IMG/VR virus record: IMGVR_UViG_3300017773_000145
Span: 1-23,627 of that record
Source: a virus
Direction: 5' to 3' (one strand)
DNA: 23,627 nucleotides
The notes below the pieces were generated by a model, which searched no databases, had not been told where the DNA came from, and worked only from the letters and a program-made list of their open reading frames with translations. Shown one piece after another: positions 15,130 through 23,035 of the stretch; position 1 is the stretch's first letter, and every line of letters starts with the position of its first letter. The position numbers were made by a program, and so were the translations under genes.

Positions 15130-15449
15130 GACATCTCGAAGCGCAAAAGTCGGGCCTGCAACTCGATGGCCTTGAGGGCTGTGCTGTATTGGCTTTTTGT
15201 GGTGGCTTTTCGCTGGATATCTTTCAGGGCACAGAGCGATTCGTGAAGCCACTCAGGCCGCTCTAGCTCAGCGTCCAGGCGCTGGTGATCACGGGCCCGC
15301 TTGATGTATTCCTCCAGCTGGCGAGTGCTGAGGCCCCAGGCGTCCGCGCCATATTGCAGGATTTGAGTTCTGCTATTGCCTTCCAATAAGAGCTTGTAAA
15401 CGGTATTTATCCGCTCATCTACCTGAATATTGGTCGATTTAGCAGCCAT
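15126..15449 (-). CDS. terS: Terminase small subunit (putative)
   Basis: A 107-aa protein directly upstream of and overlapping the large terminase. The N-terminal half has a helix-turn-helix-like unit (RINTVYKLLLEGNSRTQILQ, then WGLSTRQLEEYIKRARD), as in small terminases that bind the pac or cos site. The C-terminal half is helical (YSTALKAIELQARLLRFEMS) and suits oligomerisation. Length and position are normal. The upstream ribosome site is weak (AGGGC close to the ATG). Confidence 0.82.
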   Translation of the reverse strand: MAAKSTNIQVDERINTVYKLLLEGNSRTQILQYGADAWGLSTRQLEEYIKRARDHQRLDAELERPEWLHESLCALKDIQRKATTKSQYSTALKAIELQARLLRFEMS

Positions 15450-15458
15450 GCCCTGACG

Positions 15459-15716
15459 TTAACAGGGCTTGGAAGTTTGGTGAAGTGAATTAATGGCGAC
15501 AGAGGTTATATGGAACGCCTGATCGCGTGAGAGGAAACCTTTGTATCTGTGATGAACTTCGGTCGCGGCCTTGTGAAGCTGCGAGGTGGAGGGTTTGAAA
15601 TCAGAATTGGTCAAGTGGTCAATAACGACGTGTGAAAGCGGTTTTTGATTTTGCTCAGCGATGCGTTTGTAAGCGTCTAGCTGGTCTTGTTTAAGGTTGA
15701 TTGTGACTTTAGCCAT
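15459..15716 (-). CDS. Ribbon-helix-helix-type small regulator
   Basis: An 85-aa protein. The first 40 residues (MAKVTINLKQDQLDAYKRIA, then QKPLSHVVIDHLTN) have the strand-helix-helix layout of CopG/Arc-type DNA-binding proteins: a short basic strand KVTINL, helix A, a turn, and helix B. The remainder is a His/Lys-rich helical tail. It sits 9 bp upstream of the small terminase. It may regulate the packaging or early genes; the fold call is by pattern and the target is unknown. Confidence 0.55.
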   Translation of the reverse strand: MAKVTINLKQDQLDAYKRIAEQNQKPLSHVVIDHLTNSDFKPSTSQLHKAATEVHHRYKGFLSRDQAFHITSVAINSLHQTSKPC

Positions 15717-15747: not shown

Positions 15748-15942
15748 TTACTGAGGAATTTTTACTCGATCACCTATCCAGTGCAAATATGGGCCAATAT
15801 TGACCTCTGGTTCCTGCGCGGTGTACCACCTGTAATCGCAGGTATTGCAATGGCGGCGACGGACTGTTTCGTAGGGGCCTTCAACAGTTCTCTTGGTGCT
15901 CACAACTGATATGCGAAGCGAATGGCATTTCGGGCAATGCAT
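15748..15942 (-). CDS. Zinc-ribbon protein, NrdR N-terminal-like
   Basis: A 64-aa protein, MHCPKCHSLRISVVSTKRT, then VRRRHCNTCDYRWYTAQEPE. The CPxC...RRRxCxxCxxRxxT layout is that of the zinc ribbon at the start of the NrdR repressor and of related small phage proteins. The ATP-cone that NrdR uses to sense nucleotides is absent. The ATG at 15942 is preferred over an in-frame TTG at 15969 because the ribbon starts at the second residue. It overlaps the end of the upstream 83-aa gene by 62 bp. It may bind DNA; the target is unknown. Confidence 0.6.
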   Translation of the reverse strand: MHCPKCHSLRISVVSTKRTVEGPYETVRRRHCNTCDYRWYTAQEPEVNIGPYLHWIGDRVKIPQ

Positions 15943-16132
15943 GAGCGGAAAGGCGAAGAATTTGATCAATTTCTTTTAGTTGGCCCGAAATAAACTCATA
16001 AGTTGATTCAGGTAAGGGCTCAACATCTTCGAGGGTGTTATCAAGAACTGCACGCGATACAGCCAAAGATTGATCAAGAAGCGTTTGCAGGCGAAAGATT
16101 ACAGGCCGTTGCCTGACTGTGTGGAGTTTCAT
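15881..16132 (-). CDS. Small helical hypothetical protein
   Basis: An 83-aa mostly helical protein (RLQTLLDQSLAVSRAVLDNT, then an EFISGQLKEIDQILRLSAHA helix). The Cys-rich end (HISCEHQENC) lies in the overlap with the zinc-ribbon gene. Its ATG is directly adjacent to the TGA of the upstream 169-aa gene. No family is recognised. Lack of spacing and the coupled start place it in the same transcription unit as the replication initiator. Confidence 0.55.
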   Translation of the reverse strand: MKLHTVRQRPVIFRLQTLLDQSLAVSRAVLDNTLEDVEPLPESTYEFISGQLKEIDQILRLSAHALPEMPFASHISCEHQENC

Positions 16133-16657: not shown

Positions 16658-17467
16658 TTAGAAGGGATCGCCTTCCTGAACACCAAGATGGGTCAGGTGG
16701 CTGGGTTTGGCTGTGGCTGCTGTGGCAGTTTCGAGGAAGGATTCATAACGGCCATCACGCAGCCAACGAAAACAATCGGGGTAGCAGGTCAGGAACCGGC
16801 CCTTTTGCTCTCCTCTGGCCTGATCCTTCAACGAAGCGGCCAAAGTGCCTTGTAGGCGCTCCTGAACGCCTCTGGTGAGCTTTTTGTATTCAGCCCATGC
16901 CTTGGGCTTGGATTGACCAGTCGCTCTATTGCCAATTTTTTGGTACTGCTGCCAAAAGGCCAGGAACTCGTCGCTGTAGGCATCTGGTCCTGGTTTTCGG
17001 CCTTTTGCAGCTTTACTGGCTGTTTGTAGTTCTTTTGTATCTAGTTCTTTTGTATTTAGTTTGGCGGCAGCTCCTGCCGGGGGGTCCGGCACCATTTGCC
17101 GGGGGGTACGGCATTTCCTGCCTAGGGGTGCGGCAGATGCTGCCGGGGGGTCTAAGGACGGTGGGGCAACGTTGGCCAGGTGGTTGACGGTGACCCGATA
17201 GAGGTTTGTGCAGCAGTCGCCGCGATCGTTTCGGCGTGATTCGCGCTGGAGAAGTCCCATGGACTCCAACTGCCCAGCAACAGCCCGAGCAGTCCGGACA
17301 GAAACACAAGCACCATCAGCGATGGTTTTGATTGACGGCCAACAGTCGGCGTTTGCCCCGGCGTAGGTCTGGATGACCCAGAGAATCGCCAGCTGATTCG
17401 GCTGAAGCGTTCCGCGAATTGCTGTTGGAAGTGACGTAAAGGGAACGCCTTGCGGGATGAATGACAT
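16658..17467 (-). CDS. Replication initiator, lambda O-like architecture with internal origin
   Basis: A 269-aa protein. Residues 20-95 are a winged-helix DNA-binding domain (LQPNQLAILWVIQTYAG, CWPSIKTIADGACVSVRTAR, QLESMGLLQRESRRNDRG). Residues 100-150 are a Pro/Ala/Lys linker encoded by DNA that carries four iterons and AT-rich repeats. The C-terminal domain (155-255) has DEFLAFWQQYQKIGNR, PKAWAEYKKLTRG and FLTCYPDCFRWLRDGRYE, a common module of phage replication proteins. In lambda, O binds iterons within its own gene and recruits P/DnaB. The same layout here makes the initiator call strong. It is the first leftward gene, divergent from RusA. Confidence 0.78.
   Translation of the reverse strand: MSFIPQGVPFTSLPTAIRGTLQPNQLAILWVIQTYAGANADCWPSIKTIADGACVSVRTARAVAGQLESMGLLQRESRRNDRGDCCTNLYRVTVNHLANVAPPSLDPPAASAAPLGRKCRTPRQMVPDPPAGAAAKLNTKELDTKELQTASKAAKGRKPGPDAYSDEFLAFWQQYQKIGNRATGQSKPKAWAEYKKLTRGVQERLQGTLAASLKDQARGEQKGRFLTCYPDCFRWLRDGRYESFLETATAATAKPSHLTHLGVQEGDPF
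17027..17062. repeat. AT-rich tandem 15-bp repeats next to the iterons (possible unwinding element)
   Basis: TAGTTCTTTTGTAT occurs at 17027-17040 and 17042-17055, with a third partial copy (TAGTTT) at 17057. On the gene strand they encode repeated TKEL residues. They lie 13 bp from the first iteron and contrast with its GC richness, the arrangement expected of a DNA unwinding element beside initiator sites. Confidence 0.65.
17075..17157. repeat. Iteron array, four copies at an exact 22-bp period (probable replication origin)
   Basis: Four 17-bp units begin at 17075, 17097, 17119 and 17141. Plus-strand sequences: TGCCGGGGGGTCCGGCA, TGCCGGGGGGTACGGCA, TGCCTAGGGGTGCGGCA and TGCCGGGGGGTCTAAGG. 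The first three have inverted ends (TGCC...GGCA). A half copy (GGCGGCA, 17063-17069) is in phase before them. Because 22 is not a multiple of 3, the same DNA is read in all three frames of the host gene, so DNA rather than protein is conserved. Confidence 0.85.
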
Positions 17468-17944: not shown

Positions 17945-18003
17945 TACCTACCAAAGACCTACCAAGTGGGGCCATATTGGTTGCAGATCAGTCAACCACC
18001 CCG
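17921..18003 (+). promoter_or_regulatory. Repeated promoter/leader module, copy 1 (partial upstream element)
   Basis: CTACCA at 17948-17953 and 17959-17964 (11-bp period), 8 bases, CATATT (17973-17978, -10-like), 14 bases, CAACCACCCC (17993-18002), one base, then ATG. The upstream GTGCCAA...CACAA part is decayed here (GTGACGA at 17921 at the same distance) because it overlaps the end of rusA. Confidence 0.6.
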
Positions 18004-18231: not shown

Positions 18232-18262
18232 GCACAAGGGGCTAATGCCCCTTTTTTTGTGC
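18232..18262 (+). terminator. Intrinsic terminator after cassette gene 1
   Basis: Stem GGGGC/GCCCC with TAAT loop and seven T, starting right after the stop codon. Flanking GCACAA and TTGTGC can extend the stem. The TTGTGC arm is also the beginning of the next promoter module, so the two elements share bases. Confidence 0.85.
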
Positions 18263-18340
18263 CAACCTAAAAAGCTGCACAATCCCTACCACTTGGCTAC
18301 CAGCAAGAGCCATACTTAGCTCAGTTCAGCCAACCACCCC
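18259..18340 (+). promoter_or_regulatory. Repeated promoter/leader module, copy 2 (complete)
   Basis: GTGCCAA (18259-18265), 12 bases, CACAA (18278-18282), 3 bases, CTACCA (18286-18291), 5 bases, CTACCA (18297-18302), 8 bases, CATACT (18311-18316), 14 bases, CAACCACCCC (18331-18340) touching the ATG. If CATACT is the -10 box, GTGCCAA...CACAA falls at about -64 to -41, the UP-element position, and the first CTACCA falls at about -35. Confidence 0.7.
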
Positions 18341-18580
18341 ATGAACCTCTCCACCTTCTTCGCTGAGAAAGACTTCACGATCAAGACCTACGAAATCACC
18401 AGCCCTACGACCGGCGACTCGCACATCATCACCACCGACGTTGTGATTGATCGCATCCTCAGCACCAAGGGCCAAGAGCGTCAGCAGATCACCGGCATCC
18501 TTCAGCAACTGGATTTCCGCAACGGCGATTTTCACCACTTCTTCAAGCACCTGGCCACTGGCCTCGCTGCTCAGTTCTGA
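18341..18580 (+). CDS. Small cassette protein 2, unknown function
   Basis: A 79-aa protein: MNLSTFFAEKDFTIKTYEIT, GDSHIITTDVVIDRILSTKG, then QQITGILQQLDFRNGDFHHF and a hydrophobic helix end. It appears to be a beta-strand N-terminal half followed by helices, soluble, with no recognised motif. It shares the opening MNL and the whole upstream module with cassette gene 4 but the proteins are otherwise different. It is flanked by a complete promoter module before and a small GC hairpin after. Confidence 0.7.
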   Translation: MNLSTFFAEKDFTIKTYEITSPTTGDSHIITTDVVIDRILSTKGQERQQITGILQQLDFRNGDFHHFFKHLATGLAAQF

Positions 18581-18625: not shown

Positions 18626-18679
18626 ATGGGCGCAGGCTTGCCAACCCCGGCTTTATCCACCCCTGTTTTATGGAATTAA
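18626..18679 (+). CDS. 17-aa leader peptide overlapping the alpha-CTD-like gene
   Basis: The ORF MGAGLPTPALSTPVLWN starts at an ATG 10 bases after AGAGGAG, the best Shine-Dalgarno in this stretch. Its stop overlaps the start of the next gene by 10 bases in another frame. The next gene's own ATG lacks a Shine-Dalgarno, so translation of the leader could deliver ribosomes to it. Real translation is inferred. Confidence 0.4.
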   Translation: MGAGLPTPALSTPVLWN

Positions 18680-19023
18680 CAAAACCCCAGCTGTCCTACG
18701 TGGCCAGCTTGATCCGTGAAGACTTGGCCAATGGGGTCATGGCTTGGGACACCCGAGAGGGCCAGTCCCTAACCCGCGAAGACATCCGCGAATTGTGCGA
18801 AGCCCTAGAGCCACCAAAAAAGGAAAGCTTGCATGAGATGCCGCTTGACCGGCTAATGCTGCCAATCCGTGCTCATAACGCTCTATGGCGGCGTGGTTAC
18901 AAAAACGTCGGGGCTGTCATGGCGTTGACCCGTAGAGACCTGCTGTTGATTAGCCACGTCGGTGAGGGCAGCGCCGACGAAATCTTGGCCGCTATCGAAA
19001 ACCTTCGGGAGGAACTGCAATGA
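18670..19023 (+). CDS. RNA polymerase alpha C-terminal-domain-like protein, possible transcription regulator
   Basis: A 117-aa protein. Residues 57-113 align without gaps to the bacterial RNA polymerase alpha-CTD (MPLDRLMLPIRAHNALWRRG, GAVMALTRRDLLLISHVGEG, SADEILAAIENL). Residues matching the E. coli UP-element contacts R265, N268, G296, S299 and E302 are present as R67, N70, G98, S101 and E104; K298 is replaced by Gly 100. The N-terminal 50 residues form a different helical region (LTKPQLSYVASLIREDLANG), not the alpha assembly domain, so it cannot replace alpha itself. It could bind promoter DNA or compete with host alpha-CTD. Its stop overlaps the next ATG (ATGA), so the pair is co-translated. 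Confidence 0.8.
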   Translation: MELTKPQLSYVASLIREDLANGVMAWDTREGQSLTREDIRELCEALEPPKKESLHEMPLDRLMLPIRAHNALWRRGYKNVGAVMALTRRDLLLISHVGEGSADEILAAIENLREELQ

Positions 19024-20054
19024 GCAAACCAAACAGATACCTGAATCCCATGTACGACCACGACCACGGCAATAGTCAGGACAAGATCCAAAAACGTCGT
19101 TCTTGGTTGCACGACAAGATGACTCAGATGGGCCACCACCCAGACGAATATAAAAAATGGCATGAGGAATTAGAAACCCTCAAGCAGCATCCGAAACACG
19201 CCGAGCGGGAGCCAATCGTAAGGACTGAAAAATTTGCCGTTAGGCCTGCGGCAATCCTTAAAGATGGAGCATCCCTTAGAAGATGCACAGCATACGAGTT
19301 AGAGATCCTGCGAAAGTTTGTTTATGACGAGATCAGCAGACGCGCAACTGCTAGGCACAAGATCAAAATGCAACGAGTGGAACAGATCTTGCTGGGCTAC
19401 AAAAGACGGGGATGGCTACCCGAGTTTGAAGCATTTGTAGAAGTGCGCCGTGTGATTGTTCAGCAAAAGATTTTTGGGATGGGCAAGAAACGCGCCGCCA
19501 AAGAACTAAACGACCAAATCATCCGGGCTATGTGGCGAGGCGACAAGCAGCCATGGGACAAGCATCAAGGCATTGGCGCGATGCCCAGAGGACATTTTGG
19601 CTATGAACCAGGCAAGAAAAGCAAGACTCACTATTACTTGGATCCGAAACAGCTGCTCTGTCATGTCATTAACCAACGGAAGTACCAAGCCCAAAAAAAG
19701 CGACAACAAGCAGAGGCAGCCGCCGAACGAAAACGCTTCCACGAGGCAAAGATAAAAGAATGGGAGGAAAGGAACAAAGCCCGATCAGCAGAAGTCGCTC
19801 AAGAATGGCATCAGCAGATAAGTAAGCAGAACAAGAAGTTTCGGCAGGCCTTGGCGAAGCACGAGGAGATAAAAGCTGAGTTGTTAGCAAGGAAAGACCG
19901 CTTGGTATCCGAAGAAAACAGGGCCGGCAGCTATGAAGTTGCGATGCACACTCAGCGGCTGCTGGCAAAGCATGTGATGAACACTATCCCTGTGCCAATT
20001 AACGAGCCTCCACAATCCCTACCAAACACCGACCAGCAGGTGCAAAATGGATAG
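19020..20054 (+). CDS. 344-aa highly basic protein of unknown function, co-translated with the alpha-CTD-like protein
   Basis: Unrecognised. The N-terminal 60 residues are His/Asp/Lys-rich (NPMYDHDHGNSQDKIQKRRS). Residues 85-190 look folded (YELEILRKFVYDEISRRATA, LPEFEAFVEVRRVIVQQKIF). Residues 190-230 contain MPRGHFGYEPGKKSKTHYYL. Residues 230-310 are a long coiled coil dense in K, R, E, A and Q. The tail is Pro/Asn/Gln-rich and is encoded by the upstream half of promoter module copy 3, so the last 20 codons are probably shaped by regulatory DNA. The high charge suggests nucleic-acid or polymerase binding; the ATGA overlap links it to the alpha-CTD-like gene. Confidence 0.72.
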   Translation: MSKPNRYLNPMYDHDHGNSQDKIQKRRSWLHDKMTQMGHHPDEYKKWHEELETLKQHPKHAEREPIVRTEKFAVRPAAILKDGASLRRCTAYELEILRKFVYDEISRRATARHKIKMQRVEQILLGYKRRGWLPEFEAFVEVRRVIVQQKIFGMGKKRAAKELNDQIIRAMWRGDKQPWDKHQGIGAMPRGHFGYEPGKKSKTHYYLDPKQLLCHVINQRKYQAQKKRQQAEAAAERKRFHEAKIKEWEERNKARSAEVAQEWHQQISKQNKKFRQALAKHEEIKAELLARKDRLVSEENRAGSYEVAMHTQRLLAKHVMNTIPVPINEPPQSLPNTDQQVQNG

Positions 20055-20071
20055 GCCCACGCAACCACCCC
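19992..20071 (+). promoter_or_regulatory. Repeated promoter/leader module, copy 3 (inside the end of the 344-aa gene)
   Basis: GTGCCAA (19992-19998), 12 bases, CACAA (20011-20015), 3 bases, CTACCA (20019-20024), 5 bases, CGACCA (20030-20035), then CAACCACCCC (20062-20071) touching the ATG. CACAATCCCTACCA is identical to copy 2 over 14 bases. The -10-like box is not clear here (AAAATG at the matching place). The spacing is the same as in copy 2 although this copy is mostly coding. Confidence 0.6.
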
Positions 20072-20218
20072 ATGGATCTTGGCTCTAGCTACCTGAAAGC
20101 CCTTGTGGCCCACCAGGAAGAACTTGACCGCAAGGTACAAGAACAGCACCAGCAACTAGTCAAAGGCCTCAACCAGTACCTGGCCCAGGAGCGCAAGCGC
20201 CTGGAGTCTATCGACTGA
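20072..20218 (+). CDS. Small cassette protein 3, helical
   Basis: A 48-aa protein that looks like one long amphipathic helix or coiled coil: MDLGSSYLKALVAHQEELDR, then a Gln/Lys-rich heptad-like stretch and LAQERKRLESID. Its ATG touches the CAACCACCCC leader, and a UUCG-loop terminator begins 4 bases after the stop. No family is recognised. Like other short helical phage proteins it could act by binding a host protein, but nothing in the sequence shows that. Confidence 0.68.
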   Translation: MDLGSSYLKALVAHQEELDRKVQEQHQQLVKGLNQYLAQERKRLESID

Positions 20219-20222
20219 CCCT

Positions 20223-20244
20223 GGGGGCTTCGGCCCCTTTTGTT
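20223..20244 (+). terminator. Intrinsic terminator after cassette gene 3
   Basis: Stem GGGGC/GCCCC closed by a TTCG tetraloop and followed by TTTTGTT. It is directly followed by the GTGCCAA of promoter module copy 4. Confidence 0.8.
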
Positions 20245-20325
20245 GTGCCAACCCAAAAGGCTGCACAAGGGGTACTAGTCACCTACCAGGGCGGGGTCAT
20301 ACTGACTTCAGTTCCAACCACCCCA
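20245..20325 (+). promoter_or_regulatory. Repeated promoter/leader module, copy 4 (complete)
   Basis: GTGCCAA (20245-20251), 12 bases, CACAA (20264-20268), 3 bases, GTACTA (20272-20277), 5 bases, CTACCA (20283-20288), 9 bases, CATACT (20298-20303), CAACCACCCC (20315-20324), one base, ATG. The first 26 bases starting at TTGTGC differ from copy 2 at only two positions. Confidence 0.7.
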
Positions 20326-20493
20326 ATGAACCTCTGGACCCCCGAACGCTGCAAGACCATCTCCACCCTGGTCTTGATGGACAACTCCCTCGAAATGAGT
20401 TCCCAGGCAGTCACTACCAACAACTCCGCAAGGAAAGACCGCCTGATGTCCATCGTCGAAATGATCCAAGCCGAACTGCGTTCCCGCGTCTGA
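20326..20493 (+). CDS. Small cassette protein 4, unknown function
   Basis: A 55-aa protein: MNLWTPERCKTISTLVLMDN, a Ser/Thr/Asn-rich middle, and a C-terminal helix (KDRLMSIVEMIQAELRSRV). It is soluble with no known motif. The start is placed one base after CAACCACCCC; a longer in-frame reading would translate the promoter module. It shares the opening MNL with cassette protein 2 only. A GC-rich TTCG hairpin follows the stop. Confidence 0.68.
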   Translation: MNLWTPERCKTISTLVLMDNSLEMSSQAVTTNNSARKDRLMSIVEMIQAELRSRV

Positions 20494-22098: not shown

Positions 22099-22790
22099 TG
22101 GACATGTCAACAATGCCTCTCGATCAAGCTGCCAAGGAATCCTTGGCTGCACCGCTTGACCTCAACAACGTCAAAAAACGCAAGGGTGCTGGGAATCGCA
22201 CGCTTGACTACATCTCCGGCGAACACGCCATCTCAGAAGCCAACCGAATCTTTGGATTTGATGGCTGGAGTAGTGAAACCCTTGAAATGAAATGTGTAAA
22301 CGAAAAGCAGCCCACTTACATCGCCCGCGTTCGCGTCCGTGCCGGTGGTGTTACCCGTGAAGGCTGGGGAGGTGATAACAGCCACGACCATGAAAATGCC
22401 GTTAAAGGTGCCGAGACCGACGCGATCAAACGAGCCCTGCGGACGTTTGGCAACCAGTTTGGTTTGCCCTTATATGACAAGGAAGAGAACGCCGAGAACC
22501 TGACCCGTGGGTCAGAGCCTGCACCAAAGCCCCGGCCAACGCCTAGCCCGGAGTTCAAGCGCACTCAAGAGATCGTCGAAAAAGACATCAAAACGGGGCC
22601 CTTTTACATCTGGGAAACCAAAATTAAAAACGCTGGCCCTGGTTCCAACTGGATGGCCATGGAAGCCGCCATTCGCAATGGCAAAGACAAAAATGGAAAC
22701 GATGCTGGATTAACCGACGCCCACAAACAAGACCTAATGAAGGCGTATAAGGCAAGAAAAGCCGAAGTTGAAAAGGTTGCAACGGCATGA
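22098..22790 (+). CDS. Rad52-like single-strand annealing protein
   Basis: A 230-aa recombinase that pairs complementary ssDNA produced by the exonuclease. Residues 20-130 show the Rad52/Rad22 pattern: LDLNNVKKRKGAGNRTLDYI, SEANRIFGFDGWSSE, ARVRVRAGGVTREGWGGDN, and the signature HDHENAVKGAETDAIKRALR followed by TFGNQFGLPLYDK. The C-terminal 90 residues are Pro/Lys-rich then helical and probably bind partners. ATG at 22098 overlaps the previous TAA (taATG). Exonuclease and annealing protein in one coupled pair is the usual phage recombination arrangement. Confidence 0.9.
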   Translation: MDMSTMPLDQAAKESLAAPLDLNNVKKRKGAGNRTLDYISGEHAISEANRIFGFDGWSSETLEMKCVNEKQPTYIARVRVRAGGVTREGWGGDNSHDHENAVKGAETDAIKRALRTFGNQFGLPLYDKEENAENLTRGSEPAPKPRPTPSPEFKRTQEIVEKDIKTGPFYIWETKIKNAGPGSNWMAMEAAIRNGKDKNGNDAGLTDAHKQDLMKAYKARKAEVEKVATA

Positions 22791-23035
22791 CCATGATCCA
22801 GGCCAACTATGACCCGAACTATTCCGGGCCCTACTTTTCTGAACAGCAGCTAGCGCAGCGGTGGGGCAAACACCCCAACACCCTGCGCCGTTACCGACAG
22901 GCAGGCACTGGGCCCGCTTTCTACGAAGTGCGGCAGGTCTTTGGCCCCCGCGCCCCACGCATCAGATACAAGCTTCACGACGTGCTGGCCTTTGAGCTGG
23001 CCAACTCCATTACCCCCGACAAACTCAATGGCTGA
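22787..23035 (+). CDS. Helix-turn-helix DNA-binding protein, excisionase/MerR-like
   Basis: An 82-aa protein with the HTH_17-like pattern YFSEQQLAQRWGKHPNTLRR, YRQAGTGPAFYEVRQ, and a final IRYKLHDVLAFELAN. The PxxYxxSxxLAxxW...TLRRWRxxGxGPxxxK...VRYxxxDVxxFE layout is shared by excisionase, AlpA and small phage regulators. Here the loop between wing and helix is longer by a FGPRAP segment. It begins in the stop of the Rad52-like gene (ATGA). With no integrase in view, a role as transcription regulator is as likely as excision. Confidence 0.72.
   Translation: MTMIQANYDPNYSGPYFSEQQLAQRWGKHPNTLRRYRQAGTGPAFYEVRQVFGPRAPRIRYKLHDVLAFELANSITPDKLNG

Follow-up and report, generated by a model that had tools for sequence, protein, structure and literature searches.

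At bacterial promoters, the alpha subunit of host RNA polymerase normally places its C-terminal domain (alpha-CTD) at about −66 to −41. Phages can also encode this domain: it is annotated in many phage genomes, for example in Microbacterium phage Atraxi gp24, Bacillus phage Goe8 gp5 and Ruegeria phage V16 gp23, and in Mycobacterium phage Mithril, Rhodococcus phage Finch and uncultured phages. ORF40 of Erythrobacter phage vB_EliS-L02 has been annotated with an alpha-CTD as well (PMC9127768). Our literature search for a characterised phage alpha-CTD protein found nothing functional. Nor, to our knowledge, has any of the other phage alpha-CTD proteins been linked to a palindromic promoter element. 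Here, we analysed a 23.6-kb virus record (the window, 23,627 nucleotides in full) that encodes, like Atraxi, Goe8, V16, Mithril, Finch and L02, an alpha-CTD without a full alpha subunit. What sets it apart from the annotated cases is its N-terminal domain, the loss of the sigma-facing patch and a co-distributed palindrome. The locus also resembles the general type of dimeric regulators acting upstream of −35-less promoters, where an inverted-repeat operator lies upstream of −41 as it does here, but the suspected binder is now an alpha-CTD, and its binding is putative. The window family offers a testable case, with a small protein, a candidate site, promoters, gene-lacking relatives and a natural domain deletion; if the palindrome is bound, a general-purpose polymerase domain would have been turned into a dedicated transcription factor.

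The alpha-CTD gene (18670–19023, + strand) encodes 117 residues and is supported as an ORF by Pfam, by its relatives and by dN/dS. Pfam PF03118 (RNA_pol_A_CTD) matched residues 49–110 with an E value of 1.5e-11; its 44.3 bits exceed the cut-off of 23.8, as do the scores of all full-length kin. In a PDB search, RpoA chains were the sole strong matches (3e-6 to 1e-5). NCBIfam RpoA models matched as well, but with at most 37 bits as compared with rpoA cut-offs of at least 228. Identity reached 37% with the closest host alpha-CTDs and was 32–37% over cyanobacterial alpha-CTDs. The alpha-CTD domain spans residues 49–113 (18814–19008, + strand), as delimited by Pfam, the PDB matches and fold comparison. 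The alpha-NTD is absent from the protein. In its place stand residues 1–48 (18670–18813, + strand), modelled as a helix, a short hairpin and a helix, which matched no family; the first 51 residues found no Pfam or phage relative, and a PHROGs search with the whole protein returned no family. The original prediction of a stand-alone alpha-CTD-like protein lacking the N-terminal assembly domain of alpha is therefore borne out: by homology, the protein holds as an alpha-CTD relative without the rest of the subunit. Residues 1–48, a domain of its own that host RpoA does not have, probably serve self-association.

We then compared the protein with host alpha-CTD position by position, using the E. 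coli names of the DNA- and sigma-contact determinants, which we take from established alpha-CTD knowledge. Residues 57–113 aligned without gaps, as previously proposed. Taking the full 265-type DNA-contact set as R265, N268, N294, G296, K298, S299 and E302, the window retains R265, N268, G296, S299 and E302 (R67, N70, G98, S101 and E104) and has lost K298 (G100), which is what had been read from the sequence at the outset. The equivalents of R265 and N268 were invariant in 17 of 17 relatives, including one at 40% overall identity; nonconservation of R67 and N70 had been named as a finding against the prediction. G296 was kept in all 16 scorable relatives and S299 was S in 15 of 16, while the E302 position held E, D or Q. 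G296, R265 and N268 are likewise shared with the S. elongatus host domain (9dvt/9dvu), as are the fold and the ungapped alignment. Position 298 is G in most relatives, as it is in Atraxi, and N294, which the original prediction left out, corresponds to H96 in the window, though to N in the sister group, with H, N or Q among relatives. In contrast, the acidic positions that contact sigma region 4 are replaced in 17 of 17 relatives, D259 by R or H and E261 by M or Q, whereas host alpha-CTDs and those of Atraxi, Goe8 and V16 have an acidic residue at 259. Activator-contact positions also differ from the host. On the alignment, the protein is thus one that retains the DNA face and loses the polymerase (sigma) face. 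Since it has neither an alpha-NTD nor an acidic sigma patch, it would be a free alpha-CTD with no obvious grip on polymerase, which counts against the regulator that we propose below.

Relatives were found in 17 IMG/VR contigs in all. A protein search gave fifteen contigs that encode the protein in whole or in part; the majority of copies were full-length, at 76–100% identity. A divergent form occurs in two contigs, G009, whose copy is cut at the contig end, and G029, which is 40% identical overall. No relative was found in the bacterial genomes searched. The window terminase is 50–51% identical to those of cyanosiphoviruses KBS-S-2A, S-H1 and MED4-184, so that the host is likely a marine picocyanobacterium; none of these three phages has the alpha-CTD gene. 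Values of dN/dS were ~0.05–0.23 against kin with measurable dS, and 0.27 against the near-saturated G029, which places the gene under strong purifying selection. The gene lies 3′ of RusA and 5′ of exonuclease VIII, Rad52-type annealing and SSB-like genes. A 79-aa ORF assigned by PHROGs to phrog_6004 (18341–18580, + strand) precedes it and is missing in several gene-bearing kin. A fast-evolving 344-aa ORF (19020–20054, + strand) overlaps its stop codon, and falls to as little as 30–40% identity in kin where the alpha-CTD protein is at 76–86%. In one relative, G004 (IMGVR_UViG_3300017738_000044, ~15238–15399), the CTD has been deleted in frame, so that the N-terminal domain and the final residues remain; it is possible that this is a natural deletion or a metagenome assembly artefact.

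The gene sits, as anticipated, among four repeated modules, at about 17948, 18286, 20019 and 20272, each made of a tandem repeat, a CATACT-like hexamer and a CAACCACCCC-ATG leader. All are on the + strand. Module A (17948–18003) has CTACCA-N5-CTACCA, CATATT at 17973–17978 and the leader, carries no palindrome and overlaps the end of rusA. Module B begins immediately 3′ of a terminator-like hairpin (18236–18253) with an exact TTGTGC-N14-GCACAA palindrome (18257–18282), followed by a promoter-like part (18286–18340) with the tandem repeat at 18286–18302, CATACT at 18311–18316 and the leader; the start codon at 18341 opens an operon made of the phrog_6004 ORF and then the alpha-CTD gene. Modules C and D stand ahead of the small ORFs that come next, 5′ of the exonuclease and Rad52-type genes. 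Module C (19990–20071) has a palindrome with two mismatches (19990–20015), the tandem repeat, CAAAAT and the leader before a start codon at 20072. Module D (20243–20325), immediately 3′ of a second terminator-like hairpin (20223–20238), has an exact palindrome (20243–20268), the tandem repeat, CATACT at 20298–20303 and the leader, with a start codon at 20326. The region yielded no promoter of the TTGACA/TATAAT type, and a comparison of module DNA with isolated phages gave no match. We presume that the modules are promoters. A or T at −10 positions 2 and 6 was partly built into the scan, and the invariance of these positions is not counted as evidence.

The palindrome is a 26-bp inverted repeat, and two exact copies were found where 0.04 would be expected by chance. 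The CATACT-like hexamer follows 27–29 bp past it; with the hexamer at −12 to −7, the palindrome falls at −65/−67 to −40/−42. The original prediction had put a GTGCCAA...CACAA part of the modules at about −64 to −41, which comes near this position, but such a part is present in three of the four modules (from 18257, 19990 and 20243). It had also read the protein as keeping UP-element-binding residues. The R265, N268 and G296 equivalents are kept; the UP-element reading is nevertheless weaker than proposed, as N294 and K298 are replaced in the window, the sigma-facing residues are gone and near-intact palindromes are not A/T-rich (54% A+T versus 48% in the window).

Because the palindrome was left out of the scan with the promoter scaffold, we could retrieve ten gene-lacking sister contigs, several of them spanning the rusA–exonuclease interval, and ask how often they contain it. 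A near-intact palindrome, defined as at most one mismatch in at least one module, was present in 18 of 18 gene-bearing contigs and in 2 of 10 gene-lacking ones, all with the same scaffold. Fisher's test gave p = 1.4e-5 assuming independent contigs, which these are not, and the counts include near-copies and hence reflect few independent events. In a RusA tree, however, carriers G009 and G029 grouped with the gene-lacking clade, apart from that of the window (support 89/79, moderate), and both nonetheless have gene and palindrome. Their position favours gene loss or two gains over a coincidence within a single clade. Searching viral contigs with the palindrome pattern alone returned mostly chance matches and one new real module carrier. 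Co-occurrence across these contigs supports, but does not prove, an action of the alpha-CTD protein on the palindrome.

We tentatively propose, at somewhat less than an even chance, that the gene product is a phage promoter-binding transcription regulator. The alpha-CTD would be used as a free-standing DNA-binding domain, joined to a small N-terminal domain for self-association. Its target would most likely be the 26-bp inverted repeat located around −66 to −41 in the rightward (early/replication) promoters of the phage, bound as a dimer or a pair, with half-sites ~20 bp (two turns) apart. The bound protein would help or gate host RNA polymerase at promoters without a −35 hexamer, and the promoter of its own operon would be among those regulated. 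We infer DNA binding, dimerisation and the palindrome as target, as well as the sign of the effect, activation or repression. The fuller version, in which a detached polymerase alpha-CTD, minus its sigma-facing surface and plus a pairing domain, has become a sequence-specific operator-binding regulator whose palindrome occupies the place of host alpha-CTD, is rather unlikely in all its parts.

The link between protein and modules, put forward as an inference in the original prediction, finds support in the association, but is weakened by three contigs that retain palindromes without the gene or its CTD: G022 (28 kb) and G030 have two perfect copies each and no alpha-CTD gene that we could find, and G004 keeps its palindromes despite the in-frame deletion. 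These same contigs speak for the palindrome being the operator of another phage protein, with the alpha-CTD protein an unrelated DNA-binding neighbour in the operon, as does the inverted symmetry that dimeric repressors typically read. Small DNA-binding candidates for this role exist, namely an HTH_17/excisionase-like ORF (22787–23035), an NrdR-type ORF (15748–15969) and a DUF6364 ORF (15459–15716), yet none tracks the palindrome as well as the alpha-CTD gene does. The HTH_17 protein also occurs in gene-lacking kin and in the module-free KBS-S-2A, S-H1 and MED4-184, and the NrdR-type ORF is absent from several palindrome-bearing kin. Moreover, the promoter-gene start in G022 (MFQRI) is common to the gene-bearing G008, so that the G022 palindromes could be imported cassettes. 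On balance, we hold a different reader of the operator to be somewhat unlikely. In most genomes, the module nearest rusA has no palindrome, which would therefore not be needed at every module. A host regulon operator was also considered and rejected, as 18 picocyanobacterial genomes showed no enrichment of the palindrome (45 matches versus 54 for the reversed control); its binder is thus probably phage-specific.

A role outside transcription, as a helix-hairpin-helix DNA-binding accessory of phage replication or recombination, is suggested by the position of the gene between RusA and the exonuclease VIII, Rad52-type and SSB-like genes, and has some backing in the fold. An AlphaFold model built with close kin only in the alignment was poor (pLDDT 51). 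With host alpha-CTD rows added, pLDDT rose to 86 and exceeded 90 in the alpha-CTD part, but the fold is then not independent of the sequence match, as the alignment contained RpoA rows. The closest solved fold was, as the original prediction would have it, an alpha-CTD, that of S. elongatus (Z 11.4, rmsd 1.4 Å, 62 residues), but the N-domains of Rad51/Dmc1 also scored Z ~10, so that assignment to the RpoA family rests on sequence. Foldseek against a viral library gave nothing at E ≤ 0.001, its weak matches including named phage alpha-CTD proteins. Profiles, however, favour RpoA, Pfam returned neither an HhH nor a Rad51 family, the R..N.L motif of alpha-CTD is intact, and exonuclease genes are found in KBS-S-2A and MED4-184 without an alpha-CTD gene, making an accessory of this kind quite improbable. 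Least probable of all is a decoy that would weaken host promoters by occupying host UP elements or transcription factors, which would suit a free-standing alpha-CTD with a DNA face, its likeness to cyanobacterial alpha-CTDs and its place in a replication-side operon, but only the DNA face is mimicked, sigma contacts being replaced and activator-contact positions unlike the host, and the association with phage palindromes would be left unexplained.

No sigma factor gene was found in contigs of the window's group, whereas KBS-S-2A carries one. The tandem hexamers have an 11-bp period and stand where a −35 element would be (17948–17964, 18286–18302, 20019–20035 and 20272–20288). They are of the CTACCA type in the window, and of the CTGCA/CAGCA or CACAAC/CACCA type in kin, which suggests a second activator with a specificity varying between phages. 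The alpha-CTD protein is unlikely to be their reader, since repeat type does not follow CTD sequence: the near-identical CTDs of G005 and G007 go with different tandem repeats. A candidate reader is the 85-aa DUF6364 protein (− strand), ribbon-helix-helix-like by eye, whose ORF is conserved in both gene-bearing and gene-lacking kin. The 73-aa NrdR-type ORF (− strand) is a stand-alone zinc ribbon (Pfam E 3e-9) present in part of the group only. Directly 5′ of start codons, CAACCACCCC stands instead of a Shine-Dalgarno sequence (18331–18343, 20062–20074 and 20315–20328), and it is conserved at this place across dozens of modules. Lastly, repeats with a 22-bp period (CGGCA...GGGGT) lie at 17065–17151, inside a minus-strand replication-initiation gene.
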